Positions 11,231-58,194 of a stretch of 64,000 bases of DNA are shown piece by piece. Numbering within the stretch: position 1 is the first letter of the stretch; each line of letters starts with the position of its first letter. The translations under genes and the position numbers were made by a program. The DNA comes from Tetrahymena thermophila SB210 (taxonomy: Eukaryota; Ciliophora; Oligohymenophorea; Hymenostomatida; Tetrahymenidae), in assembly GCF_000189635.1 (NCBI RefSeq), contig NW_002476149.1, positions 248,001-312,000 on the forward strand, given 5' to 3'. The notes below the pieces were generated by a model. That model was not told the origin of the DNA. It saw only the letters and a program-made list of their open reading frames with translations, and made no database searches.

Positions 11231-14200
11231 TCAGTTTTTAATTAATACACTTCTATGTTTTTTACTTAGAATTAGTGATGCTACCTCAATGTGTTTAAGA
11301 TGCTTTTAATATATTTTTTTTTACTAATACTAATTGAATTGCATTAATATTATTCCTACATTAGTATGAACCATGTAATGGTTATATATACGCAAAGTAT
11401 CTGTTAAAATCTCTTCATTTCCTTCTTCTTATTTATTTTTGTCATTTTAATTTATTTGATTACTTAGTTAATTTAGCACATTTTAAATCTAACTCAAACG
11501 TACTGTTTAGCGCTTTACAGTTCTAGTTGTAGTCTTTAGCGATTGTTAAGAATCTATTTTTCTACTGCTCCCATGTTATTTATTTTAAATTCTGCCTTCT
11601 TTATCCTCTTTATGATTCTAAAAAATATTTTATTTATCAATTATGTTGGGTACTGATTGCCTTTAATTTGTTTTAGAAGAATTTTATTAAGAATTAGGTT
11701 CTATTAAATCTGTTTTATTTCTTGAAGATTTAAAAATTGTATTTTTGGCTAAATTTCTTTTTAAATGATTATTAGAATCATTATGCAGCTATTACTACTA
11801 AAGATCATATTGATTATCTTTATCTTATTTGTCAAATTTATCTTTCATATCAAACAAGTTTTTTTGATTAATTTCATGTATTTTTTCTTAAAGCTAATTT
11901 GTTGAATTAATTTACTCGTCTTCAATTTAACTAGAATCTTTTTGAGTAAATAAAGATTTATTGAAAAACTTTTAACCTTATTCATTCTTTATTGTAATAG
12001 GCGATAAAAAACTCAACTATGGTGCAATTTCAGATTGAGGTAATTCATTTCTCTCAATTGTATAGTTGTTTTCATCTTCATCTTCATCGATATTTGATAA
12101 TGATTAGAACATAGTATCAATAAATGTTTCGTTTTCATAGCAAAAATCTTAAATATCCTTTTCTACTTCTTTAACTATAGCTAATGAGTTGTATCTATTA
12201 TTTGACTTCTTTCTTAACTCTTTCTTAGATTTTTCAATTTGTTTATTAAAATCATTAATTATCCTATATTTATTTGGTTTATAGAAGAAAATCGGACAAT
12301 CTTTTATTAAATGCTAGCTACTTTTACATGAATAGCAGAAAAGGTTAACATTCTCATAACATTTATATAAATTGACCATATCTTTTTACTAGCAGTAAAT
12401 TTCCTTATCAGTTCCATTTTAATTGATTGCATCCAAAAAATCTTGTAAATCTAGAATGTGTACTGTTGTGACTCCAATACTTTTAGCATTTGTCATACAT
12501 ATCTAAGATTAAGAAACAAATTCAAACAAACCCAACGAATCATTTTATTTATAGATACTAAATGGTTTATTTTTATCTAGATTATTTGTTAATTAGCACC
12601 CAAATTTAAAACCTTTATCTAAACCAACTTCAACCTGTCCTTTAAGAATATAGTATAGCCTTGGTGGTTAATTCGAACCACTCTTCATGATAAATTCGTC
12701 AGGACCTATTTATGTATTTATTAATCATTGTTTTTAATAAATAATAAAAAAAACTAGAGAAAGTATTGTAGATAAAATATGTATTTTTATCAAAAAGTTT
12801 TAATCATCTCCTATGATTAGTTGTTATTTATTCTTTATAAAAATCTATATCATTCATGAATTTACCTAACTATTGTTAGAATTAATCTCATAAAAAAGTA
12901 CATACTTAAGATATATTATTTAAACTTGAAATAAATCTTTATTTGATTTTTTAAGGAATTTTATGAAAAAATAAAAATTTAAATATTTTTAAAATATTGC
13001 TATCAATTTTATTTCAATTTTTTTTTATAGCACAAAGCAAATGAAAAGAAAATTTCTGATAGTAAATTTATTCATTGATTGATTTATTCAATTGGTTATT
13101 TTGTATTGATTGGTAAATAATTTAATGTTTAAAATATTTACTTTTGCAAGTTATATAAAAATAAAAAAATAATGAATTGTATTGTATTATTACCATAATT
13201 AAGCTCAATCATTTTTCGAGATAGTTAAGATCTTAATTGCTGACTAAAGCATTAGAGATAAGGAATACTTTTGATTGATTTTTTAAATATATCTTCTTTA
13301 ATTTCTTCTCTTAGAGAAATGCTTAGTGAGTTCAAAGTATCACAAGGTTTTACACCTTATTAAAAACCTTAATCGTGGACATACTTTAAGTACTTTCTTG
13401 CCATTTATTGTAGTGTTGGATTTACTTCCCTGTTAAACATATAATTGTTTAGTTCTGATAACTTGTTAACATATCCTTCCTGCTTCATTTAAAATTCTCT
13501 ATACACATTTTATATATTACTAAGGATATAAGCAAATATTCCACATGAAAAGACTGCCATGCAAGTCAAGCAGCCTTTTTCTATTGAACTAACTGGAACT
13601 ATGTCTCCAAATCCTATTGTTCCAATTGTAATAACAGAAAAATAAATAGAATCTATATATTATTAGTATTAGTTATTATCACTAGTGCTATATTTTTAAA
13701 TCCAGTTTGGAGTCATTCCTTACTGAACCTGATAATTTCCGATAGAGTACCAAATGCATGCAAATAAATGACACAAAAAGACTACTTCTATGAATAGAGC
13801 GACCAAATTCACCACAAAGTTATATTTATAAGACAACTAAAATGTCTCAGCTAGTTTTTCTATAATATCATAAAACTAAAAAAATTTCAAGAGAAAAAAT
13901 ATCCTGAAAAAAGATACTCCAAAAGGATTGAGCCATAAGCAAAGATATGCAAATACTTCAAAGAATAACCTATTTTTGATTACATGAAAAAATATTTTGC
14001 TCCTTTGTTTTTCTAAAACTCCATTTTCATAGTATGCAGTGTTAAACATCATAAAGAATTCAAAAAAGAATATGAACCTACTGGCTTAAGTAATATCATC
14101 AATAGAAACAACTTAATTATTAAAAGAAAGCTCAAAAGGAATTTTGATGCAGTTAATTAGAATGAATACCATAATTATTAAATCCCATCCCCAAGAAATG

Positions 14201-15278
14201 TTTTAAAATGGCATAATTACAGGTATAGGATCAAGCACTTTTCTTAAAGTGTATAAAAATGAATTTTTCAAATTCTAGAAAGGGACAATAAATATTTTAA
14301 TTTTTTTCCTAAATATCAAATACAAAATCCTAATTCTACGAATTATTTTAAATTTGCTTCTAAAAATGTTATCTTTATTTGTTTTTTTATTTTCATGATC
14401 TTTATTTGGCTGATAAGCTTTTTAATAATTAAAAATAAACTAATAAAAACACTAAAAATGTTTAATTAAATTAGTAAAAGTAAATTAAAAAAAAAATTAT
14501 TGTTGTTAATTTTGCATTCAATTTTATTTATAAATTACTGAAAAATTAGCTTTTTATATTCTTATTTTTTAAAATTAATAATTTATATTGTTTTACTAAT
14601 GTCATTAATTGCATTTATCTAGTTGCCTTTCAACTAATTTGGTCGAAAGTAAATCAGTTTTTTTTTACTTCTAAATAAGAATCTGTTTACAAAAAAGAGA
14701 ATGTAAAAAAATCGAGTGAGCCATATCTTATCCTTATTTACTTTTTCTTTCTAAATAAATTGCTGATCTAACTGCTCTTACAAATTATTACTATTTTTAT
14801 TGTATGAAGTCCTTTTCATCTCCTCAGTTTTCTTAGTTTTTTATCTTTTCTATTAAATATCAACAATAAGATCTTCCTTCTATTAGTTGTACATCGTATT
14901 TTTCCCTCTTTTTATTTGGCTATTCATGGATACTGCATCTAAAGACTTTTATTGTTTTGAAAAACTATCTATATTACTAATTGTTGTATCTAATTTTAAA
15001 GGAACTTTGCTAAAATTATCTTAGCTTTTTGTGATGTTTGTATTTTCAAGTGGATTTACCTATTAAAAAATATATTGACTTTTTAATTTGTCAACATTTT
15101 CTTCTATCTCATCAATTGAAGAACTTGAATGTATGTAAGATTTTTAATGGAAATTATCTTGAACTAACCATTGCTATCTCTTTTAATCTCCTTGCCTAAT
15201 ATCAAAATTATTAGGCCACTAAGCAAACCTAAATTCTTTTAGAGATAAAATATTGCTATTTTCATTGCTTGATTCCAT
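11231..15278 (-). CDS. Potassium channel with cyclic-nucleotide-binding-like domain, paralogue 1
   Basis: Six-transmembrane channel of the CNG/HCN/EAG superfamily, expected to carry K+ across plasma or ciliary membrane. From the N-terminus: a charged Q-rich tail, S1 starting SWGWDLIIMVF, an S4-like stretch with few basic residues (FFRIFFLLKF), and the selectivity filter TIGFGD (about 13601-13625). A C-linker and a CNB-like domain (GPDEFIMKSG to TTVHILDLQDFL) follow, then a CCHC zinc knuckle CYSCKSSQHLIKDC (about 12300-12340), a Q/S-rich region and a tail ending in HRSVLIKN. In the phosphate-binding cassette the usual FGE reads GLFEF and the Arg position reads Lys, so nucleotide binding is doubtful. 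Intron 12706-13193 splits the codon before PDEF; another lies at about 14400-14600. Start ATG 15278 (MESSNENS), stop TGA 11231-11233. First of three tandem paralogues. Confidence 0.85.
12300..12341 (-). other. CCHC zinc-knuckle motif in channel paralogue 1
   Basis: The encoded CYSCKSSQHLIKDC fits C-X2-C-X4-H-X4-C exactly and lies just after the CNB-like domain. The same motif recurs in the other two channels, near 17045-17083 and 21632-21672. Zinc knuckles usually bind nucleic acid or protein; the role in a channel tail is not known from the sequence. Confidence 0.75.
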
Positions 15279-15967: not shown

Positions 15968-18900
15968 TCAGAATTTTTGGAAAATACTTCTGTGCTAAAG
16001 ATTGTTAGAAACAATTTCTAATAACTTTTACTTTTCTCTCTCTTTCTTTTTGTTCTGATACTTATTGTATTTTTTTATTACAATAAAGGCGTTATTATTT
16101 GGCATATAGTATTTATATATCCTAATTGTATCTATAATAAGCTCTTCTTATATTTCTTCTTGAGGGTTATTCTCCTTTTTTATAATATTACTTGTAAGAA
16201 GATTTAGAAAATTTTAGATTTAGCTGTAGCGTATGCTGTTTCTTTTCTATGTTTGAATATTCTGAGTTTTTAGAGATTACAGTGATTTCATATATTTTTG
16301 TTTTTCTTTATTTGACATTATGTTTTCGTTAATTGCTTTTTAATTAATTAAATTTATGTTTTTATCTAAAATTCCCATTGATATTCTTTATGAAAGTTAA
16401 CTTTAATGAATATTATTTATCTACATAAAAGAATTTTTCTTAGAAACCAAACCACAATTGTTAAAACTGCTTCTATGAGCTTAAATTTCATTATTTTTAA
16501 TGCTTTCCCTTTTATCAACTTGTTTTTCTGCAATATTTTATTCGCTGCAAATAAAATTTTAATTTAATAAAGAATCTAACTTAAAGTCTTCATTTAATTT
16601 GCAACACTCTAAAAAGCTAGCTTCCTACTAAATTGCATTTAATTTGCTTTGTTTTTCAGATTTTTCAGATTATTTTTTCTTGAATTCATCATCAATATGC
16701 ATTATATCATCTTTTTCCTAATTTCTATCTTTTGCCATTCTTAAATTTACTTCACTCTTCGGCTTTAATGGAGATAAACTGCTTTATTAGGCTAGTATAC
16801 AATCATTAACATCAATATTTTATAATGTATCTTTTAAAGTAGACTGAGATTAATACAAAGAATCTATATCTGATTCATTCTCTTCACAAAATTGCAAAAT
16901 ATCTTGCCTTAGTTAATTAACAATAGCAAGAGAATTAAATCTGGAGTTCTATTTATTTCTGATATTCATTCTTAAGTAATTTTAACCTTATACATGTTTA
17001 TTTATTATTTTCTGCTTATTAGGTTTGTAAAAAAAGACAGGACAATCTTTAATTAGATGCTAGCTACTTTTGCACGAGTAGCAAAATAACTTTGTCTGTT
17101 CATAATTTTTGTATAGATTTATCAAATCTTTTTAGTGAAAGTATATTTCTTTATCAGAAGAATTCTAGTTTATCGCTTCTAAAAAATCATCCAAAGCTAG
17201 TACGTGAACAGTAGTAACTCCAACACTTCTTGCATTTGTCATACATAGTTGTGTCTAAGTAGTGAATTCAAATAAACCTATAATATCAGTTTATTTTTAC
17301 AAACTAAAGACTTAACTATTCAAACTATTTTACTATTATAAATTTTATTTGTCTAAGCAAACATCTACTTATCCCTTCAAAATGTAGTATAAGCGAGGTT
17401 ACTAAAATTCACCACTTTTCATAATAAATTCATCAGGACCTAATATTTTGTTTTTAAAATATTATTTATATTCCAAATAGAGACAAAAATTATTTATTCT
17501 TTTGCAAATTTTCAAAATGTATTTTTAAAATTATAATTAATAAATAAATCATCACCTATTCTTTAAAATAATACAAAAACACCATCAACAATCAACAGAA
17601 TTAATTTTTTCTATGAGCTATTTATTAAGAAAAAAAAATTTTAATTTACCGTAATTTATTTCAATCATTTTTCTTGAAAGCTAGAATCTGAGCTAAGGAC
17701 TAAATTATTATAAAAACTTAATGTTATCAATAGACTTTTTGAAGATATCTTCTTTTATTTCTTCTCTAAGAGATATGCTTAGAGAGTTAAGAGTTTCGCA
17801 GGGCATCACTCCTTACTAAAAGCCTTGATCATGAACATATTTTAAATATTTTCTAGCCATTTACTATAATGTAGGATTTACTTCTCTGTTGAACATATAA
17901 TTATTTAACTCTGATAATTTATTATTGTAACCTTCTTACTTCATTTAGTATTCTCTATACACATTTTGTATATTACTCAGTATGTACGCAAATATTCCGC
18001 AAGAAAAAATTGACATAGCTGTTAAGCAGCTTTTTTCAAGGATGCTCACTGGTACTATGTCTCCAAAACCAATCGTTCCGATTGTAACAACTGAAAAATA
18101 AATAGAATCTATATATTACTGATATTAATTATTATCATCTGCGCTATACTTTTAAATCCAATTAGGAGTCAACCCATTTTTAAATTCATAATTACCAATT
18201 GAATACCAAATACATGCAAATAAGTGGCAAAGAAGCACAACCTCAATAAATAGTACTACTAGATTTACAACAAAATGATACTTATATGATAATTAAAAAG
18301 CCTCAGCCAATTTCTCTATTGTATCATAGAGCTATATGAACTTAACTAAAAAGAACATTCTTAGAAGACTTATTCCTAAAGGATTTAACCATAGACAAAT
18401 ATAAGTGCATCCCTCTATAATTAAACGATTTTTAAGAAAATGAATAAAAATCTTACTTCTCTGTTTTTATAGAACTCCATTTTCATAATAAGCTGTATTA
18501 AACATCATAAAAAAGTCTAGAAAGAATATTAATTTACTACTAAAAGAAACGATTCCAATAGATATATCTCCGTTATTAAAAGCAAGTTCATAGGGAATTT
18601 TAATAACATTAATTAGTATCATTATCAAAATAATTAAATCCCATGAAATTGAAAAATTATGATAGGGCAAAATAACAGGAATAGGATCTAAAACTCTTTT
18701 CAGTGTTGCAATAATCTTATTTTAAAAGTTAATGAAAGGCTAAACACATAATTTAGTTTTTTTCCTAAAAATCAAATACCAAATCCTCAATCTACGTACT
18801 ATTTTAAATTTACTACGAAAAATATTATCTTTCACAATGTTTCTGTTATCAAATTCATTGTTAAACTGATATACTTTTTTATTTTAAATATATTTATTTA

Positions 18901-19814
18901 TTTACTAATTAATTTATTTATACTAAATTCAAAGGTTAATCAAAAAGATAATGAAATTACCAACTTTTTATATTAAAATTGTATTATCATTTCATTATTT
19001 TATTTATTTTTAAATTAAATATTTAAACATATATTTTTATGCTATTACCTACATCATTAATTGCTTCTGCTTAATGGCTTTGGAGTTAGTTTGGATGAAA
19101 AAATAAAAGCTTTTGTCTATTTCTTACTAAGAACCTATTTACAAACAATAAAATGTTAAAAAATCTTGATATCCACACTTTTTCCTTTTTATTTTTGTGT
19201 TTAGACTCTTGACTAAGAACATCATCCCTTTAATGATCTAAATCTCTTTCTGAGTAATAGTTTAGCTTATTTTACTATTCAACTTTTTTTGTTTTTTTTT
19301 TCTTGTAAGCTGAATCAACTATACTTTCATCTCTCTTTGGCCTGAATATTGTTTTCCTACCTTACCTTACTTTAATAACTGCTGAAGAGCTTTCTAAATT
19401 TTTTTAAATATTGCTTTCGTTCAAACAATTTTTCTCTTCATTTTACTAAAATAAATTTTTGTTATATTTTTCATCTCTACTTGCAGCAATATTTTAATCT
19501 TAAGAATATTCATCCTTTAAAATCGTATCATCTTTTTAGTGTTGAAAGTTATCCTAATCTATTGAATTTAAGCTTTATTGCACAGATTTTTAGCTGAATT
19601 TATCTTGTAGAATCCACTATTACCTTTGAAAATCTCCTAATCTGATATCAATTTTATTTAATTTTATAACCTAGCTTTTATAGCTAGCTTAATTTTCTTG
19701 TTAGGTTATTGGTGAAGTGATCTCTAATAAACCTTAACTTAAAAGCTCACTTTATTATTTTTGATATTATTGTTGACAATTTTATTCAATATATTATTTG
19801 CGATTTGAATTCAT
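15968..19814 (-). CDS. Potassium channel with cyclic-nucleotide-binding-like domain, paralogue 2
   Basis: Same architecture as its neighbours. A Q-rich N-terminus contains the shared motif DIRLGDFQRQQW. The S1 region is SISWDLIILIMILIN, the S4-like stretch is LLRMFFLVKF, and the filter is TIGFGD (about 18051-18080). A conserved C-linker (NPTLQQMARKYLKYVHDQGF), the CNB-like domain, the CCHC knuckle CYSCKSSQHLIKDC (about 17045-17083) and the tail HRSIFQKF follow. The cassette reads GLFEF with an Arg kept in MTNARSVG, unlike the Lys of paralogue 1. Intron 17440-17649 sits at the same codon (before PDEF) as in the other two copies. Start ATG 19814 (MNSNRKQYIEQ), stop TGA 15968-15970. The pore and C-linker are nearly identical to paralogue 1 while both tails diverge, as expected for tandem duplication under selection on the core. 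Confidence 0.85.
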
Positions 19815-20537: not shown

Positions 20538-23500
20538 TCATATTTTTTAGCATATACTTCTATATTACACTGAAGTAGAAAATACATCTAAAATTTTTTA
20601 CCTTTATATCTCCTATTTTTTATCAATGAGTAAATTTAGCTTTTCAATTACAGTTGCAGCATTATTGTGAATCATGTAATATTAGTAAGATCTAATAGTA
20701 TCTGTTATTAGTTCTTCTTAAATATCATCTTGGATATTTTTATTATCTTTTGTTACTATTGTGGTAGCCAGTAAATTTAATGCTTTTTAAATTTCAGCGA
20801 ATGAAATATTATTTTCATTCTTTAAACGTTTGTTTTAATTTTAAAATGATGTTTGAGACTTTAGTGCTTTATTATTTTCGTGCTAGATATCTTTATTATA
20901 TTTTTAATTTTCATTTAATTGCTTTTAGTTGATTTAGCTTAACACACTTTCTAGGGGTTATGTTTAAAAGCTTTCATGTGATATGTTTGATAATAATTTA
21001 TTATTTGTTGAAATAGAATTTCTTTTAGGTACTACAACAGAGATATTGAAACTTTTTCTTTATTTACCTTCAAAATTATTAAGTAGCTATATCTCTTAAA
21101 CATTTTTTTCTGGCATAGTTTTTAAATGATTTAACTATTTTTAATTTGATGAGGAGCTCACATTGAAGTCCTCATCAGGTGTTTTTAAACTCTAATATTA
21201 TTTTATTTCTTATTAAATTAAATCTATTTTTTTCACTTTATCTTTAAATTCTACTTAAATATTTTACAAATCATTTTATTCGTTGATTTAATCTTCTTCC
21301 TAAGATTTTCTATATTTAATTAGCCTTAAGTTAACTTCACTTTTAGGTTTCAAAGGAGATAAGTTACTTTATTGATGCAATAAGCCTTCATTAATATCAA
21401 AATTATGTAGAGAACACTCATTTATTGTGGATTAAGATTAGTACATTGAATTTATTTCAGACTCATTTTAATCACGAAAATCTTGAATATCTTATTTTAG
21501 GGAATTGAAAATGGCTAATGAGTTAAATCGTTAACTTGTTTTATTTCTTATACTCTTTTTTATATAATTCTATTCTTTTATATACTTATTTACAACTCTT
21601 TCCTCATTTGGCTTGTAAAAAAATAAAGGGCAATCACTAATAAGATGCTGGCTGCTCTTACAAGAATAACAAAATAATTTAACATGCTAGTAGTTATGAT
21701 ATAAGTTGATTTTATCTTTTTACTAAAAGTAAATTTCTTTATCATAACTATTTTGGTTAATTATTTCTAAGAAATCATCTAATGCTAATACATGAACTGT
21801 AGTAACTCCAATACTTCTAGCATTAGTCATACAAGTTTATGATTGAGAAGTGAACTCAAATAAACCTAATACATCATTTTATTTTTGAAGACTAAATGGA
21901 AGAGATAATGAACTATTATTTTCTTAGTAGCCATTCTTTAATCCTTTATCTAGGCAAACTTCTACTTATCCTTTTAAGATATAATATAGCCTTGGCTATT
22001 ATTGTTACCCTTTCTTCATAATAAATTCATCAGGTCCTAATAAAATAATTTCATTTTATCAAAAAATTCATTAAAATATTAAATAATCTAATTAAAATTA
22101 ATTTTTAAATAAGTTTTGAAATAAGCAATAAATTAAAAAAAAAAATAAAATTAATTTGTGATTATTCTTTTGGTAAACAGAAAAGCAAAATAAATGTAAA
22201 AAATTTTACCATAATTAATTTCTGTCATTTTTCTTGAAAGTTATATTTTAAATTAATTACTAAAGTTTGATAAGTATTTAATATTATTAATAGATTTTTT
22301 GAATATGTCTTCTTTAATTTCTTATCTTAAGGAGCTACTTAGAGAATTAAGAGTGTCGCAGGGCATAACTCCTTGCTAGAATCCTTGTTAATGGACATAT
22401 TCGAGATATTTCCTAGCCATTTATTGTAAGTTAGGATTAACTTCTCTATTAAACATGTAATTATTTAATTTAACTAGCTTACTAATATATCCCTCTTATT
22501 TCATTTAGTATTCTCTATATACATTTTGTATATTACTGAGTATGTAGGCAAAGATTCCGCAAGAAAATATAGCCATTGCTGTTAAACAAACCTTTTCAAG
22601 AGTGCTAACTGGAACAATATCTCCATATCCTATTGTACCTATTGTAACAACAGAAAAATAAATAGAATCTATGTATTACTAATATTGATTATTATTGTCA
22701 GTACTAAACTTTTAAATCCAATTAAGACCCGTTGAATTTTTTACTTCATAATTTCCTATAGAGTACCATATACAAGCAAATAAATGACACAGTAGAACAA
22801 CTTCTATTAAAAGAACTATCAGTTTTACAATAAAATTATATTTATAAGAGAGCTGAAATGCCTCAGCCAACTTTTCTATTGTATCGTAAAACTATAAAAA
22901 CTTAATTAAAAAAAATATCCTAAACAATTATATTCCAAAAGGATTAAACCATAAACAGACATAAGTGCATCCTTCAATAACTAAACGTTTTTTTAAGAAA
23001 TGAAGGAATATCTTGCTTCTCTATTTTTCAAGTACGCCATTCTCATAAAAAGCTGTGTTAAACATCATGAAGAAGTCAAGGAAAAATATAGCTCTACTTA
23101 TATAAGAAACAATTCCAACTGAAAAGTATCCATCATTAAAAGCTAATTCATAAGGAATTTTTATAACATTTATAAGGATTAAAATTAGAATAATTAAATC
23201 CCATCCTAAAGAAAAATTATTATAAGGTAAAATGACAGGTATTGGATCCAAAATATTTTTTAATAGAGATATTATCTTATTTTATAAGCTCTGAAAAGGT
23301 GAGTAGCACTATTTTGTGCTTTTTCTAAAAATCAAGTACATAATTCTCAGTTTACGAACGATTTTATATTAACTTCTAAAAATGTTATCTTTCATCATTT
23401 ATTTATTCTCATACTCATTGTTGAATTCATACGCTGTTTTTAATTAAGTACAAATTTTTAATATAGATTTTATTTAAAAATATAAGCCAAATAATTGAAC

Positions 23501-24758
23501 TACTTTTTAAGCTTTTAAATTAAAATTTTTAATTAAATATTTGCATTTTGATTTTTAGCATAAAAACTGAGTGTAATAAATTAGCCTACACAATTTTAAA
23601 TCAAAATTTCAAATTAAATGTTTGCATTTCTATTTTTAATATATTGAAAAAAGCCTTTTTTAACTTAATTTAAAATTTAAGCTAACAATTTATTTTTTTC
23701 ATTTTTTCTTGCCATTATCAACTATTTGTTTGTTGATAAAAAAAAAATAGAATTCTTATTAATTTTTTTTAAATTAATTAAATTTATAAATATTTTTAAT
23801 GTTTTTTTAAAATAATGAACAAACAAGCTAACTTAAATAATTAAACTACTAACTAATTTAGTGATAAATATTAGTTTATTGATGTAAGTTAAAGTTTAAT
23901 AAAATTATTAACGTTTATTCTACTAATTTTAAAAATAAGAATCTGAAAAGTTGTTAGATTAATTTTAAGTCTGTACAAACAAATTTTTTGGTATTTATTA
24001 AAAAGTAAAAGAATATTTGTTTTCTCATTACCTAAATCGTTGATAGCTTAAGCCTAATGACTCTAAAGCTGATTTGGATGGAAATATATAAGTCTTTATT
24101 TGTTACGAACTACAAATCTATTGATAAATGTCAAAATTTTATAGAATTTGGATACCCATATTTTTTCATTGTTAGTACCCACCTAGTTAGTTATGACCTC
24201 ATCTTGCTAATAAATTAATTCATTTTCTTCTACTTATGAGTTTCTATTTGACAAGTCTTTTCTTTTCGACTTTTTAGATTTATTTTAATATTCTGACACG
24301 GAGTCATCTCTTTTTTGTCTGTCTATAGTTTTTCTTCCTTTTCGAACTTAAATTATTGAAGACGAAAGTTCTAAGGTCTTAGAAGGCAAATTAGTGATAA
24401 AGAAACTTTTTTTATCACTAATTTGTTGAGCTAGTTGATTGTTTTAATTTTGAGCACAAGAAATATAGCTTTAATCGCTTTAGTACTCCTATTATAACAA
24501 AGATGCAATTTTATCATTTTACTGACTCTCTTACTCTTAAGAAATCCTTGTAAATTGAGGGGATTTAAAAGGTAATTTATCTTCTGAAATGGATTATTAC
24601 TACTGCAAAATATCTTCTTGTCTGAATTTTAATAATAATAAAATACTTTAATTCCTATTTTTCTTAAAACAATATATTTTTAATTACTATTGAGCTTTAT
24701 TTAGAGCCAGCTTTGACTTCATTTAATTATTAGCTTAAATATAATTTTGATTATCCAT
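20538..24758 (-). CDS. Potassium channel with cyclic-nucleotide-binding-like domain, paralogue 3
   Basis: Third member of the array. The S1 region is SLGWDLIILILILIN and the filter is TIGYGD (about 22611-22640), closer to the classical GYGD than the GFGD of its neighbours. A C-linker, a CNB-like domain with GLFEF and MTNARSIG, a CCHC knuckle with one change (HLISDC instead of HLIKDC, about 21632-21672), and a tail ending YRSICQKI follow. Intron 22037-22209 is at the shared position before PDEF. The N-terminal region ATG 24758 (MDNQNYIQANNQ) carries a conserved basic block (VRKGRKTIDRQKRD), matching VRQGRKTIFRPKRD in paralogue 2. Stop TGA 20538-20540. The filter difference suggests the copies may differ in conductance or gating, which is inference. 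Confidence 0.85.
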
Positions 24759-37799: not shown

Positions 37800-38876
37800 A
37801 GAGGCTACATTGCTGCTAATAAATACACCATAAAAAGAGCTATTTTGAAAATAAATTAACCAAATTCAAAAAATATTTTTATAAATAAATCTTATAAAAA
37901 TTAATAAATAAACTAAAGCAATCAATTATTTATTTCTTCAGTCCATTAAGCTGAATTAAAAAATGAATAACGAAAATCTCTTCATTTCTCATAATAACTT
38001 TAAAATATTTCAGGTTTAAAATAATTATCTAAAATTATTTAATATCAACTTATTCTTTAAATTTAATATGAGATAAAGTTTCAAATTTTTTATTGTTTTT
38101 ACTCTCAAAATTATTTTATTATTATTATTATGTTATTTATTCCATCATCGTTCTCTAATTTAATTTGTCTCATTTAATTATTCTTAATATAATAATAATT
38201 TATTATATTATATTATAAACTCAAGTCAAGTCAACTGGCTCTCTTATTAAAATTAAAAAATATAAAATAAATGAATTTCTTCTTATTTGAGTTGAAATAG
38301 CTAGACAATTTAAAATCTTGGTTTTAATCAGATTTCAATTTTATAAAAAAAAAACTAATACTCAAATTCAACCCTTCTTATTACTCAAAAATGATTTCTT
38401 TAACTCTATAATCATAATAAAAAATAACATTAGAACTTCTTTAGATAATAAAAACAAATAAAATATATTTTGGTAAAGCTAGCTTCTTTATCTTTCTTTA
38501 TATTGCTTTAAAATTTTTAAACTTACTTACATTTTAATTTGATATATCATTATCATAAATATAAATCTATGATTTTATTCATAATACATATGCTCATTCG
38601 TCTATTATATTTTCCATAAAAACTAGATGTTAATAAACCATAGAAAAGTTAAAGATTTTGTATGCATTTGTGTCTCTATCAAGAAAATACTGATTAAAAC
38701 TTTCAATTATAGAAGATTTTTTTGATGGAGACAAAAATTTATATGAGTTATTCAATTTCTTTAAATATTAATTGACAATTAAATTCTGGTTTTGAATAAA
38801 ATCCTATAATTATAAAATTAACAAACAAAACTGAAAAGCAAAACAATATAAAATAAAACTCAAATAATAAGTAAAT
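37800..38876. other. Intergenic spacer
   Basis: AT-rich 1.1 kb between two plus-strand genes. It should contain the 3' end of the Q/N-rich gene and the promoter of the vWA gene. No gene seen. Confidence 0.6.
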
Positions 38877-40772
38877 ATGGGAAATAATAACTCAGCAGGA
38901 AGCAAATCAAGATCTAAATCCAACTCACCAAAATAATCTTCTAATTAGTAACAATAAAATTTGTAAAAATAAAAAGAGGACTTATAATAGAAATTAGCAA
39001 GTGTAAATCTTAGATGCTAAAACAAGTTAAATGATAAAAGTTTGCATGACTAAAGATCAAACTTTTGTTTAGAAAGAGAAAACAGTGTTAATAAAGAATT
39101 TTTGTCAAAAACAGTCCATTAAACTTAACAAAGTGAAAATGAAAACAATAACAAAAATTTAAGCAGTTAATAAGTTGAAGAAATAATTCAATTTAACTTA
39201 ATTAGTGAAACTAATGAAGTTTCAATTAAGAAATCTGCTAGTTTTGTCTGTGGAGTCAATTTACATGTTAAACAACCTAAGGAATAAAGTGAAAGAGTTC
39301 CTATGGATTTAATCTGTGTAATTGATGACAGTGGTTCAATGTCTGGTAAAAAAGCTCAATTAGTTAGAAAATCTCTCAAATATCTTCTTAAAATTATGAA
39401 TGAGAACGATAGAATTTGCCTAATTAGCTTTGATAGTGTTGAAAAAATTTTAACTCCCTTTTTAAGAAACAATTTGGAAAACAAATCTGAGTTAAAAAAG
39501 GCTATAAAGAACATAGTAGGCAGAGGATCTACTAATATTGAAGCAGGTATGGAAGCAGGTTTATGGATGATTAAAAATAGAAAAGAAAAAAATCCTATCA
39601 CTTGCATGTTTTTGCTCTCTGATGGTTAAGACGATTCTCCTTAAGTAGACTTAAGAGTATAAAAGCTTATATAATCTTATGATATATAAGATACTTTTAT
39701 TGTAAACACTTATGGATATGGAGCCGACCACGACGCTACTTAAATGAGAAACATAGCTGAAACACACAAAGGAGGTTATTATTACATTGAAGATGTTAAA
39801 AAGGTTTCTGAATGGTTTGTACTTTCTATAAGTGGTCTCTTAAGTGCAGTTGGTGAAGATGTTAGAATTAGAATTAAGTCTTAAAATAGTTAACAAACAA
39901 AATTAGCAATTACTCAAGTTTATGGAGGTGATTAACTTTGGGTGAAGTAGGATTATGAGAAAGGCGTCTTTGAGATATATCTACCTCATTTAGTAATTGG
40001 AGATAACAAGTTCTTTGTTTTTGATTTGCAGTTTAATTCTGAACAGTTCAAATTAACTGATCAAAACAGATCTCTTGCAGCTCTTGAAGCTGAATTAGAA
40101 ATTAAAGCTGTTAAGGAGGAATACATTATCCGTAAAAATGATACACTTTAAATTGATTTTAAGGATGCTGATTAGGATTAAATTAAGAATAACTCTACAC
40201 AAGCATACTATGAAGAAATGATGGTTACTCATTCCAGAGCAGTTGGAGGATTAAAAATTAAATAGGCAAATCAACTTATCAATTAAAAGAAAGATTATAC
40301 TTAGGCAAAGGCAATCCTTTAGCAATATAAAGATGAAATGATCTCTAAAAATGCAATGCTTAAGGATAATAATGGCATAAAGCATCTTGACGAAGATCTA
40401 GATGAAGCTATTGGAAAATGTGCTCCATAACTCTACAGGTAGGCCTCCTTTGATAAAATGGAAGTTATTCACTGTTAGAGACGTAATTCTATTTGCCACT
40501 AAGAAGATTGGAATGAATGTCAACAAGAAATTATGGGTAAATTTAAAAATAATGATATTTGTTTGAGTGATGATTCTTGCTCAGATGATGAAAGTGATCA
40601 AAAAAAGAAACCTTCTTAAGTTAATTCTTAAAAACGTAATCCAACTCATATGTAACAATATTCTGATGAATATTAATCAGACTCTGATGAGGAAGATACT
40701 TAATAAAATTAATAAATTTCTCAATAATAATAAAACTTAAATTAAATTAAATTATAAAGAAGATTTTCTTGA
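38877..40772 (+). CDS. von Willebrand factor A-domain protein with predicted N-myristoylation, 631 aa
   Basis: Intronless, phase-checked: ATG 38877 to TGA 40770-40772. The N-terminus MGNNNSAG fits the myristoylation rule (Gly2, Ser6), followed by a Ser/Lys/Gln-rich linker. The vWA domain starts near residue 143 as MDLICVIDDSGSMSGKKAQL. The MIDAS motif DDSGS is intact, the second MIDAS Thr lies in GRGSTNIEAGM, and the Asp lies in FLLSDGQDDSP. A beta-rich domain (about 330-430) follows, similar to the C-terminal part of the Vwa/VIT family of ciliates and plants. The tail has HCQRRNSICHQEDW and an acidic, Ser-rich end. Metal-dependent ligand binding at a membrane is the likely role. The ligand is unknown. 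Confidence 0.85.
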
Positions 40773-41782: not shown

Positions 41783-43045
41783 ATGGCTAGCACTCTTACT
41801 AAAGCATAAAGACTTAAAAATTTAAATGACTTGCTCTCTCAATTTAGCGTAATTGATTTATATCTGAGAATAAGGCATTTTTAAATAATTTATAAAATTA
41901 GAATAAAGTAAAATAGAACAATATTAAATTGCCAAAATTCGTAAAAGTTGTTGAAGTTGGTCCAAGAGACGGTTTACAAAATGAAGCAACCCTTCTTCCT
42001 GCAAAGGATAAAATTGATTTAATTAACAGGTAAATTGTTAAGAATTATAAAAATAATAATTGCTAACAAATCGTAAAAAATAAGGTTGAGTGATAGTGGC
42101 TTGAAAACTGTTGAAACTACAAGCTTTGTTTCACCAAAATGGGTTCCTCAAGTAATTGACAAGCTTTAAATATATTTTTTTCGCTTATTTGTAAATTTAA
42201 AATGATATAAGATGGGAGATAATATGGAAGTTTTTGCAGGAATAAACAAGTACCCAAATGTTTCTTATCCTTGCTTAGTTCCTAATGTTAAAGGTCTCGA
42301 ATAAGCTTTGAAAGTAGGTGTAAAGGAAATAGCAGTTTTTGGAGCTGCTTCTGAAGGCTTTACTTAGAAAAATATTAATTGTTCAATAGTAAATAACCAA
42401 TTTTTAAAATATTAATCAGCAAGTAGAAATTTAACTTATTCTAAAATAAAATAGGCTGAAAGTTTAGAAAGATTTAGAGCTGTCATTGAGGAAGCAAAAA
42501 AGCATAATTTATTAGTTAGAGGGTAATCATTTTATGTCTTTTAGATAATTAAATATTTTAAAAAATTTTATAACCTTCTTAGTTATGTTTCTACTGTTAT
42601 GGGATGCCCCTATTAAGGTGATGTTGATCCAGAAAAGGTAGCTGAAGTCAGTAAAATTTTGTATGACATGGGTTGCTATGAAATAAGTTTAGGAGATACT
42701 ATTGGAATTGGTACTCCTGAAAAAACTGATAAAATGTTAACTGCAGTAAAGAAATAAGTCCCTGTTGAAAAACTTGCAGCTCATTTCCATGATACTTTTG
42801 ATAAAGCTATTTCAAATATCTTAGTTGCCCTTGAGCATGGAGTAAGTGTTGTGGATTCAAGCATTGCAGGTCTTGGAGGTTGCCCTTATGCTAAAAAATA
42901 AGCTGGTAATGTTTGCACTGAAAATGTTGTATACTCTCTTCAATAATTAGGTATAGAAACAGGAATAGATTTATTAAAGTTGAAGCAAATAGGTTCTGAC
43001 ATAACCACAAAATTAAAAAGAGATAACATGTGCTTATTGGAGTGA
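41783..43045 (+). CDS. HMGCL: Hydroxymethylglutaryl-CoA lyase, mitochondrial
   Basis: Cleaves HMG-CoA to acetoacetate and acetyl-CoA at the end of leucine degradation and in ketone body formation. The N-terminus [20 protein letters not shown] is basic and Ser/Leu-rich, as in mitochondrial presequences. The first intron at 41849-41901 precedes the core, which opens [14 protein letters not shown]. Family motifs follow in order: [44 protein letters not shown] (metal ligands) and GLGGCPYA with the catalytic Cys. Further introns fall after LINR, WVPQ, INCS and LLVRG; their sequences are AT-rich and start GTAA or similar. Stop TGA 43043-43045 after DNMCLLE. The family is about 300-325 residues, and this fits. 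It has no peroxisomal C-terminal signal. Confidence 0.93.
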
Positions 43046-43808: not shown

Positions 43809-45024
43809 ATGAGTTAGAAACTTTCATAAGCAGAAGTATAAAATTTGGATTAGCAAATAGATTTATTATATGATGGCAAGCAATTATCTGAAAACGAAGT
43901 TAAGTTTTTATGTGAAAAAGCTTAGGAAATCTTACAACACGAATCAAATGTTTAGCCAGTTAAATGCCCAGTAACGATTTGCGGTGATATTCATGGACAA
44001 TTCCATGATTTGATGGAACTTTTTAGAATAGGAGGTAAAATTCCTGACACTAATTACCTCTTTTTAGGAGATTACGTAGATAGAGGTTATTTTTCTGTAG
44101 AATGTGTGACCCTTCTTATTGCTCTTAAAGTCAGATATAAAGACCGTATTACTTTGCTTAGAGGTAACCACGAATCTCGTTAAATTACATAAGTTTATGG
44201 CTTTTATGATGAATGCCTTCGTAAATATGGTAATGCCAATGTATGGAAATACTTTACAGATTTGTTTGATTACCTTCCTTTAACAGCTCTAGTTGAAAAC
44301 TCTATTTTTGGTCTCCATGGTGGTCTTTCTCCCAATATTTAAACTTTAGATGAAATTCGTTAGATTGACAGAGTTTGCGAAATCCCTCATGAAGGTATGA
44401 ATATTATTTTACTACTTTAAAAATAGATAAAAATATATGAAAAATACCTTCCAACCATATTTTTAGTTAATAATTATAAATAAAATTTTTGAAACTAAGA
44501 AAAATCTTTAAATTTACAAAAGCAATTTATGAAAAAGCAATCGAATTCGTTTATTTAAATTTGAAAAATGAATTCCTTTCAAATTTTAATAAAATATAAA
44601 AGTTATTAAAAATAGCCATGAAAATAATATTTGCATTCAAGATTAATAAACTTTTTAATTAAATATTTTAGGACCTATGTGTGATTTACTGTGGAGTGAT
44701 CCTGAAGAAGGTTCAGGTTTTAATCGTAGTCCTAGAGGTGCTGGTTTTGTCTTTGGTTAAGATATGTCAGAGAAGTTCTTAAAATTTAATGGTATCAACT
44801 ATATATACAGAGCACATTAACTTGTCATGGAAGGATATTAATAAACACATGATAAAAAAGTAGTGACACTATTTTCAGCTCCTAATTATTGTTATAGATG
44901 CGGTAATTAAGCAGCCATTATCGAAGTAGATGAAAAAATGAATATTACATATTTATAATTTGATCCTGCTCCTCGTAGAGGTGAACCTCATGTAACTAAA
45001 AAAACTCCTGACTATTTCCTTTGA
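43809..45024 (+). CDS. PPP2C: Protein phosphatase 2A catalytic subunit, 312 aa
   Basis: Serine/threonine phosphatase core enzyme. Exons 43809-44394 and 44672-45024 give 313 codons (phase-checked). All PPP signature motifs are intact: [28 protein letters not shown] and RAHQL. The C-terminus ends TPDYFL, the strictly conserved PP2A tail whose last Leu is carboxymethylated to control holoenzyme assembly. Length matches the usual 309. The single 277-bp intron (44395-44671) splits a Gly codon before [11 protein letters not shown] paralogue with the same intron position follows 600 bp downstream. Likely housekeeping. Confidence 0.97.
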
Positions 45025-45620: not shown

Positions 45621-46657
45621 ATGGAACAAGAGGAATCTATTCATATGATTAAAAATGATCTTGACTAAATCATATCTGCAATAACTAATAATAGAAAATT
45701 ACCAAAAAAAGCGTTGCTTTATCTTTGCGAATGTGCCTTAGAATAATTATAAAACTAAGATAAGTTAATCAATCTGAAAAGTCCTGTTACAGTAGTGGGT
45801 GACTTAAATGGACAATTTTAAGATCTATAGGAAATATTTTAGATAGGAGGCAGAGTTCCTGATACTAATTATTTGTTTTTAGGTAATTACATAAATAAAG
45901 GTCATTATTCAATTGAATGCTTTTCGTATCTGATAGCATTAAAGCTAAGATATCCTAGTAGAATTACATTACTTAGAGGCAGCCATGAAACAACGTCAAC
46001 TTCAAAAATATATGGATTTTATGATGAATGTAATAATAAATATGGGTCTATTGACATTTGGAAAGCATTTTTATCTGTTTTTGAGTGTCTTCCACTTTCT
46101 GCTGTAATTGAAAACGAGGTATTTTGTGTTCATGCAGGTCTATCACATTAAATTAATGATATAAGTCAGATATTAAATGTAAAAGATGATGAAAGTAGTC
46201 TAGTGCAATAAGGTAAAAATTGAGATTTTCATTTAAATAAAAAGTTAAATTAGTTACTAAAAAAGGACCTGCTTACCACTTGCTATGGAATGAGCCAGAA
46301 GAAAGTGAAGGGTAATGGACATTTTCAGAATCCATCTCTCAAATATATTTTGGTAAATAAGTAACAAAGAAGTTTTTACACAAAAATAACCTTAAATTAA
46401 TTTTGAGAGCTCATGAGTACTAAAAAAATGGCTATAACTTTATGCATGATAAAAAACTTTGCTCTATTTTTTCTGCTCCTAATTAAGATGCTAGCTCAAA
46501 ATCTTTAGGTTCTTTTGTAGAATTCGATGATTAAATGGACATGAATATTTAATAGTTTTAACCAATTTTAAATAAACAATAGTATAATTAACACATTTAA
46601 GATAAAAGAATTAACTCAATTCTACTTGATTAAGATTACTGTATGAATTTAGAATGA
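45621..46657 (+). CDS. PP2A-like pseudophosphatase, 327 aa
   Basis: Tandem paralogue of the PP2A catalytic subunit with damaged active site. Exons 45621-46212 and 46266-46657 give 328 codons (phase-checked), with no in-frame TGA. Compared with PP2A: GDIHGQ reads GDLNGQ (metal-ligand His lost), GDYVDRG reads GNYINKG (metal-bridging Asp, second Asp and Arg all changed), and GNHE reads GSHE (catalytic Asn lost). The later His motifs remain in VHAGLS and LRAHEY. The fold-defining segments [34 protein letters not shown] and IFSAPN are kept, so the protein should fold but probably not catalyse. The DYFL tail is replaced by an unrelated end (LDQDYCMNLE). The intron is at exactly the same codon as in PP2A. 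The open frame suggests selection for a non-enzymatic role. Confidence 0.9.
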
Positions 46658-56262: not shown

Positions 56263-57162
56263 TCAGTGCAATTTTAAGGAGTCAACTCTTCTTTTATTTA
56301 ACTATTCATAAAGAGTCCAGGTTAGGGCTCCACTTGTACATTTTTTCAATAGACGTGGGAGATATCCTTTATAAAAACCAAAAAATCCTTGCTCTGTGTA
56401 TACTTATTTCATTAAAGTTCCCATAGAACGAGTCTCTAGTTTCTTTCCTTGATATCTAACACGAATGTTGTCGAAAGGATAAACCATAAGCAGGGAAAGG
56501 CCACTTGAAACAGCACCAACAAAAAAAACATATGAAGTATTATCTTAGGCACGTTACTAAAAGACATAGTCATAAGATTAAATCATGGAGCTATATATAG
56601 CAAATTAAAGACCACTCCATGGTATGTCTCTCATTAATGTAGGAAGAATACCTCTGTAAAATCCAATAAAGCCCTCTTCTTTAGTAATTTTAGCAACAGT
56701 AGATAATATTGATTTATATTCATTTTATCCAACAACTTCAAATCTTGTTTTCATAACATTAATTGGAGACAAAATCATAGAAGTTACTAACTTAGCAGAA
56801 GAAGCACTTAAGAAATTTAAAAACTACTGCAAATAAGGGTTTTTTGCATTTTAAGCATTGAAGATATAACGAATATTTTCTAAGCCTGTAAAAAATATAC
56901 CACATCCTATTGTGCTCTTCAAAATTGCTAATACACCTCCTCTATAAAAACCCTTATAGCCTTCTGATTTCCAAATTTAGATAATTTGCTTACCTAAATC
57001 TTAGAAATTGGTACCATGGTTATTTGTTTTGTTTATAATAGAACTAGTTCTAAGAACCTCAAAAGGCTGAGTTGCAAAACTAAGACAAGTGCCTACCAAA
57101 AAGTTATTCCAGTTTATTTTCTTAACTTTCTTTTATGGCTTTTACAATTAAACTGCTTCCAT
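56263..57162 (-). CDS. Mitochondrial carrier, SLC25A38-like (glycine/heme synthesis), 299 aa
   Basis: Intronless, phase-checked: ATG 57162 (MEAVQLQKPQKK) to TGA 56263-56265, 300 codons. Three carrier repeats are visible. Repeat 1 has QPFEVLRT and GFYRGGVLAILKSTIGCGIF. Repeat 2 has SPINVMKTRFEVVG, EGFIGFYRGILPTLMRDIPW and SGLQFAIYSSM. Repeat 3 has YPFDNIRVRYQG, GFFGFYKGYLPRLL and GALTWTLYEQL. The P-x-[DE]-x-x-[RK] motifs are partly degenerate: repeat 2 has PINVMK, as in human SLC25A38 (PITVIK). The second and third repeats line up well with SLC25A38 (RDAPFSGIY; AMAWTVYEEM). That family supplies mitochondrial glycine or an isopentenyl-type cargo for heme or coenzyme Q synthesis. The family assignment is likely but other SLC25 members cannot be excluded. 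Confidence 0.8.
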
Positions 57163-58194
57163 TTTTTAAATTTACTAATTTGGGCTTTAATACTTTTTTT
57201 AAAAACTTCTAGTTTTTGTAGCTAAAATAATTAATAATCTATTGTGTTCTACTTTTTAGGTTTGTAAAATATCTAAAGATTGATCTTATTAAATTTATTT
57301 AATTATTTAACAAATCTATAAATATTCAGAAAATTTAATTTTAAATTAATTATACAAGAATCTAGGAGGTGCCCACAAAAATCTGCTTATCTCCACTAGA
57401 ATTTTCTATTCTTTTCTATCCAAATATATTCATAAATGTATGTATGTATATATTATCTACAAAATCTTTTTTTATTTTTTAAATTTGGCTATCTCCAATT
57501 ATTAATCAAAATTATTTTTTTTATCACATAAAAAATGTAAGCTTTATTTTGAATAAAAAGTTTTATTTTTAAGTTATTCATTCCTTGTTACGAGAAAATT
57601 CTTCGTATAATATTTAAACTATTTGTTTTCAAATAAGTTTTTAAGCTTAGCTCCTTTAATGGAAAGTTCTTGAATATATATGCATTATTTTTTTACTGTT
57701 TGTAATGTAAATTTGCATTATTTTTTTGTATTGAGAATATTTATATATATTTTTTTAAAATTAAAACATAAATCAGATTTCATATTGTTAAAGTCAATTT
57801 CAAAGTGAAAAATAATCACATTTTATATGAAGAGTAATGGTTTAACTTCATCAGACTCTTAAACCACAATTACAAGCTTAAAGCAATTTATTTGTGAAAA
57901 TTAAATATCTATAAATATGGTAATATTTTAATAAAAAAGTTCATTTTTGTAATAGTGCGAATTTTAGAATTAAACAAGATTGATTGATTAGTAAGTATCA
58001 TAACTATTTCAAAACCTAAAATAGCTATAATTATTAGAAACGATTATGTTGAGTAAACACATTTTAATTAATTATAAGATTATCTATTAAATCAAAAAAA
58101 TAAAATTTTATCTGATCAATCTTCAAAATTTGGATACATTCTTTTAATTACTTTAACATAAATTAAAAATTTTATAAACACAATAAATAGGGTT
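57163..58194. promoter_or_regulatory. Divergent spacer between carrier and HIT-protein genes
   Basis: 1 kb AT-rich spacer between a minus and a plus gene, so both promoters should lie here. No motif was recognised. The overlapping short ORF at 57016-57225 is a shadow of the carrier gene. Confidence 0.5.

Follow-up and report, generated by a model that had tools for sequence, protein, structure and literature searches.

A study from 2023 called PfPPP8 the first experimentally characterised pseudophosphatase of the PPP family (PMC10317984). It describes PfPPP8 as essential although catalytically dead, reports no activity and proposes trapping of phosphate; relatives are listed for Apicomplexa, Vitrella and Chromera (PMC10317984). 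The words Tetrahymena, Paramecium and ciliate are absent from its main text. Kinetoplastids, too, have PPP paralogues in which catalytic residues are replaced; these pseudophosphatases comprise kPPP and PP2B-like proteins, and several of them lie on long branches (PMC2175518).

Here we analysed psi, our name for a 327-aa PP2A-like paralogue located behind a PP2A catalytic gene. With PfPPP8 and the kinetoplastid kPPPs already described, psi is a further case of a known kind. Like PfPPP8, it carries Asn in place of both Asp residues of the GDxxDRG motif (GNLINRG in PfPPP8, GNYINKG in psi). The changed residues of PfPPP8 are, however, Asn 1311 and 1314 of a far longer protein, whereas psi is a single domain; the positive residues of the other PfPPP8 motifs are reported as unmodified, while psi also lost H59, R89, N117 and R214 (PMC10317984). 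The kinetoplastid proteins resemble psi in being PPP paralogues with altered catalytic residues, but they are described as kinetoplastid-specific, some as BSU1/BSL-like, and as a second PP2B cluster, and not as derived from PP2A (PMC2175518). PP2A-C (PPP2CA type) was the best match of psi by sequence and by fold. Unlike PP2A-C, psi has a dead catalytic centre, shows only 40-42% identity and lacks the TPDYFL tail.

The gene pair and the catalytic centre of psi

The window, which is the whole stretch of 64,000 nt that was analysed, is ciliate nuclear DNA from a 101-Mb assembly of 445 contigs and was read with genetic code 6, in which TAA and TAG encode Gln. An earlier note on this DNA had placed psi at 45621-46657, directly behind an intact PP2A catalytic gene. 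With code 6, a + strand gene running from ATG to TGA has exactly these coordinates, and the neighbour (43809-45024, +) is indeed intact, encoding 312 aa with the C-terminus TPDYFL. Both genes lie on the same strand, and a spacer of 596 nt separates the stop codon of PP2A from the psi ATG. The features of the pair are as follows.

43809..44394, + strand: PP2A catalytic subunit gene, exon 1 (gene model; human PP2A-C match, E 2.1e-165)
44395..44671, + strand: PP2A gene, intron (in phase 1 at residue 196)
44672..45024, + strand: PP2A gene, exon 2, ending with TPDYFL and TGA
45621..46212, + strand: psi exon 1 (PF00149, E 2.5e-22; best PDB sequence matches PP2A-C)
45798..45815, + strand: GDLNGQ for GDIHGQ (H59N)
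45882..45902, + strand: GNYINKG for GDYVDRG (D85N, D88N, R89K)
45978..45989, + strand: GSHE for GNHE (N117S; H118 kept)
46131..46139, + strand: HAG for HGG (H167 kept, G168A)
46213..46265, + strand: psi intron in the homologous-position model (in-frame alternatives: intron end 46253, donor 46195)
46266..46657, + strand: psi exon 2, ending with MNLE and TGA, without the TPDYFL tail

Elsewhere in the window, an HMG-CoA lyase-like gene lies upstream of the PP2A gene (42206-43042, +), and a VWA-domain protein (38835-40769, +) and a mitochondrial carrier (56266-57429, -) are encoded. ORFs for ion channels (PF00520) follow one another at 13075-14517, 17588-18928 and 22019-23608 (-), and the three look like a tandem array; a cyclic-nucleotide-binding match below the Pfam cut-off was found amid them (20541-22058).

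The frame of psi is open over 327 residues, as claimed before, with neither a TGA nor a frameshift in 981 coding bases. The open frame is weak evidence, because TGA is the sole stop: when 3,408 frames of 981 nt were sampled from the window irrespective of coding, 125 were free of it. With the donor at 46213 and the intron end at 46265 splicing keeps the frame and yields a product of 327 aa, the intron lying at residue 196 and in phase 1 as in PP2A. An intron end at 46253 is also in frame and results in 331 aa; the splice aligner, when left free, selected donor 46195 and end 46253. The proposed identity of the intron positions in both genes holds for one of these three in-frame models. Since an intron at this position and phase is also present in the PPP genes L063, L064 and L067, it is not diagnostic of PP2A, and it is absent from the PP2A-like genes L056, L058, L059 and L060. 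The stops, frameshifts or loss of the intron that mark a processed or disrupted pseudogene were not seen in psi.

The PPP domain of psi was recognisable with PF00149 on exon 1, by the match to PP2A-C (6.7e-79) and in the fold search. Exon 2 is poorly conserved, and its PF00149 match (E 0.0064, 17.4 bits) stays below the Pfam cut-off of 21.5. The marks of a functional PP2A catalytic subunit, GDxHG, GDxVDRG, GNHE and the C-terminal TPDYFL, are missing, and the three motif replacements named in the earlier note were all found (see the features above). In human PP2A numbering the changes are H59N, D85N, D88N, R89K, N117S, R214S and Y265Q; D57, H118, H167 and H241 are retained. Residues H59, D85, D88, R89, N117 and Y265 do not vary among 16 sequences used for comparison (human PP2A and 15 genes of the same genome, without the odd L054, L055 and L063), while the invariance of R214 is limited to the 13 PP2A/4/6-like sequences among them.

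The metal ligands are the six residues D57, H59, D85, N117, H167 and H241. The earlier statement that the metal ligands and the catalytic Asn were lost applies to H59, D85 and N117, which is three of six ligands, but D57, H167 and H241 remain, together with H118. In PPP chemistry both metals are bridged by D85, the phosphate is bound by the arginines R89 and R214, and H118 is the proton donor with D88 as its His partner. With these roles, psi is very probably inactive as a phosphatase, because the bridge between the metals and the arginines that hold the phosphate are gone. Phosphate trapping, as put forward for PfPPP8, is disfavoured for psi, which has lost R89 and R214.

Origin of psi and other divergent PPPs of the genome

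When the genome was searched with the protein sequence of PP2A, 60 matches at exon level were obtained, which we grouped into 22 PPP genes, the two described here and L051-L070. PP1-, PP4- and PP6-like labels were assigned by eye, and the tree was built without PP4, PP6 or PP1 references. The partial models L066, L067 and L069 were kept outside the tree and the residue counts; their visible motifs are intact as judged by eye, the first motif of L067 lying outside its model.

Psi and the neighbouring PP2A share 130 of 312 aligned residues in the pairwise comparison and 40.1% in the multiple alignment. The best sequence match of psi was human PP2A-C with 269 bits, followed by calcineurin (243) and PP1 (225). 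Within the genome, L051, a paralogue without introns, was the best non-self match (37% identity, E 4.3e-61) and the next was exon 1 of the neighbouring PP2A (E 4.4e-57, 48% identity); no second copy of psi was found in this search. A search for orthologues gave none: in viral contigs psi had no match, and in bacterial and archaeal contigs none of 8 pattern matches was confirmed, although such collections say little for a ciliate gene. A literature search gave no publication that we recognised as dealing with the psi gene among the matches listed.

In a tree of 19 sequences of the genome and human PP2A, psi formed a branch of length 1.39 and joined L054, L055, L070, L064 and L068 with a support of 94.6/90. 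We read this placement with divergent PPPs as long-branch attraction; it still counts against an origin from PP2A. When these five genes were removed, leaving 15 sequences for the AU test, a position of psi inside the PP2A group had p 0.76 and one as tandem sister of its neighbour p 0.48. Placements with the genes labelled by eye as PP4-like (p 0.06) or PP6-like (p 0.12) and with L065 (p 0.08) were weaker and not formally rejected.

Adjacency, the best match to PP2A-C and an intron position absent from four other PP2A-like genes (though present in L063, L064 and L067) argue for a tandem origin. At second codon positions psi and its neighbour are 68% identical, at third positions 45%. A recent tandem duplication was rejected, because the third positions are as diverged as those of seven old paralogues, which show 43-52% identity to the same PP2A. 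Psi also has 6 of the 37 residues that are unique to its neighbour, and the same type of sharing amounts to 7/43 (L058), 3/35, 6/59, 9/73 and 3/28 for five other PP2A-type sequences. The designation as a tandem copy is based on adjacency, best match and intron position, but the copy would not be recent, with about 40% protein identity and saturated third positions.

Further PPP genes of the genome have altered centres. L054 (G000:C411; also L007, 1225-3174, -) encodes a Kelch-PPP with D57N, D85N, N117A and H241K, the Kelch repeats being in the same reading frame as the PPP, and is a likely pseudophosphatase. L055 (G000:C312; also L006, 1-606 + and 1240-2445 +) has GSINGQ, GNYVGRG and GNME, with D57S, H59N, D85N, D88G and H118M, and is a likely pseudophosphatase as well; its Kelch stretch is a separate upstream frame that is inferred to belong with the PPP. 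In the tree both cluster with L070, a Kelch-PPP, at a support of 100/100. These PPKL-like genes share the loss of metal ligands with psi but differ from it by the Kelch repeats in or beside the gene and by their grouping with L070. L063 (G000:C179), PP4-like by our own label, has GDYVNRG (D88N) with all six metal ligands kept and is possibly a weakened enzyme, as judged from its sequence. Altogether 3 of 22 PPP genes look dead (psi, L054 and L055), 19 of the 22 being tabulated and three judged by eye.

Constraint on psi and its predicted structure

A codon-branch test with 8 sequences and 304 codons was performed on a fixed tandem-sister tree. An omega of 1 over the whole psi branch was rejected (2dlnL = 44.7), and a single omega shared by the entire tree was not (p 0.84), both with saturated synonymous lengths. 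Psi retains 76 of 82 always-hydrophobic core columns, and 50 of the 80 invariant residues are also present. When neutral drift was simulated to a matched identity with flank composition (d 0.38, 2,000 runs), the result was a mean of 62.4 and a maximum of 75 hydrophobic columns and a mean of 28.6 and a maximum of 44 invariant residues. With coding composition (d 0.45, 2,000 runs) the maxima were 72 and 45, and with less drift (identity 45-52%) they were 76-78 and 47-56, respectively.

The fit of a three-class codon model was best when the branch ended in a neutral stretch that amounted to 0.4 substitutions per codon (lnL -6308.6 versus -6312.8 without it; iterations were limited and the zero-tail fit hit a bound). 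This optimum corresponds to 0.13 substitutions per nucleotide and was the best among seven values tried. Losses at the active site were not significantly more frequent than at other invariant residues (7/11 versus 23/69, p = 0.09), and this was also the case in a second comparison (6/10 versus 10/36, p = 0.07). For neutral decay, which the earlier note had named as evidence against its interpretation, the results are mixed: neutrality over the whole branch was rejected and the core exceeds the matched simulations, but a late neutral tail fits better than none. In our reading these data suggest, but do not prove, that psi was retained under relaxed constraint.

AlphaFold2 prediction for psi exon 1 with 2 sequences gave one model with a mean pLDDT of 64.2, the other four reaching 36.7-48.2. 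In the best model residues 11-40, 101-120 and 131-160 had values of 75-89 and residues 161-197 stayed below 35. The 27 best PDB matches of this half-domain model in Foldseek were PP2A-C chains (TM about 0.6 by query length, rmsd about 6.4). Since exon 1 of the intact PP2A, used as a control at equal depth, failed with only 42.5, the evidence from AlphaFold2 is noisy and counts little.

Possible explanations for psi

We consider it probable that psi, an old PP2A-like paralogue, has lost its catalytic centre but was kept in the form of a folded non-enzymatic protein during at least the greater part of its history. With D85, H59, N117, D88, R89 and R214 lost and the hydrophobic core retained, psi would not hydrolyse phosphoesters and would also trap phosphosubstrates poorly, because the arginines are gone too. 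It would most likely serve as a protein-binding module in a complex that needs no PP2A tail, making its contacts through parts of the PPP surface remote from the active site. A phosphatase that is still active with an altered metal site is highly improbable: D57, H118, H167 and H241 are kept, but the bridging ligand D85 and both arginines that bind phosphate were lost together. Psi could also be a decaying pseudogene, an old paralogue that was long constrained as an enzyme, lost its function late and is now drifting. The improved fit with a neutral tail and the lack of significant enrichment of active-site losses are in line with such decay, and D85N, D88N and R89K are, in our reading, favoured by AT-biased mutation. 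The coding GC of psi is 28.0%, compared to 32.8% for PP2A and 15-18% for the flanks, and under the fitted tail the probability of finding no TGA is 0.14, which is not small. The third-position GC of psi (20.2%), however, equals that of PP2A, the intron is still removable in frame, and the probability of finding no frameshift in 981 coding bases under the tail is 0.17, 0.013 or 2.8e-5 at assumed indel:substitution ratios of 0.02, 0.05 and 0.12. We regard decay as rather unlikely.

Less likely again is the role considered in the earlier note, in which psi would act as a decoy for the catalytic subunit and compete for the scaffold or the regulatory subunits of PP2A. The best match to PP2A-C, the kept core and a descent from the PP2A group that was not rejected are compatible with it. 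Of 17 residues specific to PP2A, 5 are present in psi (3 of 6 in a stricter set), and some PP2A-specific surface may persist on it because of these residues; the ten non-PP2A paralogues keep fewer, 0-4 of 17 and 0-2 of 6, at sites that were defined from four PP2A sequences and chosen as rare in these ten. But 12 of the 17 residues are changed, and E42, the alpha4 contact, is Q in psi. The tail is lost as well. The assembly of PP2A-C into holoenzymes is directed by methylation of its C-terminal leucine (PMC8630191, PMC9707111). Removal of this leucine from PP2Ac-beta reduced B55 binding to below 5% and scaffold binding 2- to 4-fold (PMC8630191), and binding of B56 and B72 was also lower; striatin binding was less affected in some cells, which speaks for the decoy (PMC8630191, PMC9707111). 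The PP2A-C variants R89A, H118Q and T301Stop, in contrast, had a methylation of less than 0.15 of normal (PMC9707111). As judged from its residues, psi is unlikely to be a decoy for the usual PP2A trimers, because the methylated-leucine tail and most PP2A-specific residues are missing; a scaffold-only or striatin-type association may occur. In our view, a structural role like that of PfPPP8 would be somewhat more likely than displacement of the PP2A catalytic subunit. Of the proposed retained non-enzymatic regulator, the loss of catalysis is well supported by sequence, and there is support for psi having stayed a folded protein during most of its past; subunit competition is not supported, and a late neutral phase may have occurred.

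PPP pseudophosphatases are rarely described, and psi adds a single-domain, PP2A-like case from a ciliate. A wider and doubtful idea is that ciliates, like apicomplexans, repeatedly turned PPPs into parts that are structural or regulatory and not enzymatic; psi would then be derived from PP2A, would have reached the PfPPP8-like pair of Asp-to-Asn changes independently, beside two Kelch-PPKL cases, and may tune the assembly of PP2A-type complexes. The presence of three likely dead PPPs in one genome suggests that reuse of the PPP fold without catalysis is commoner than known.
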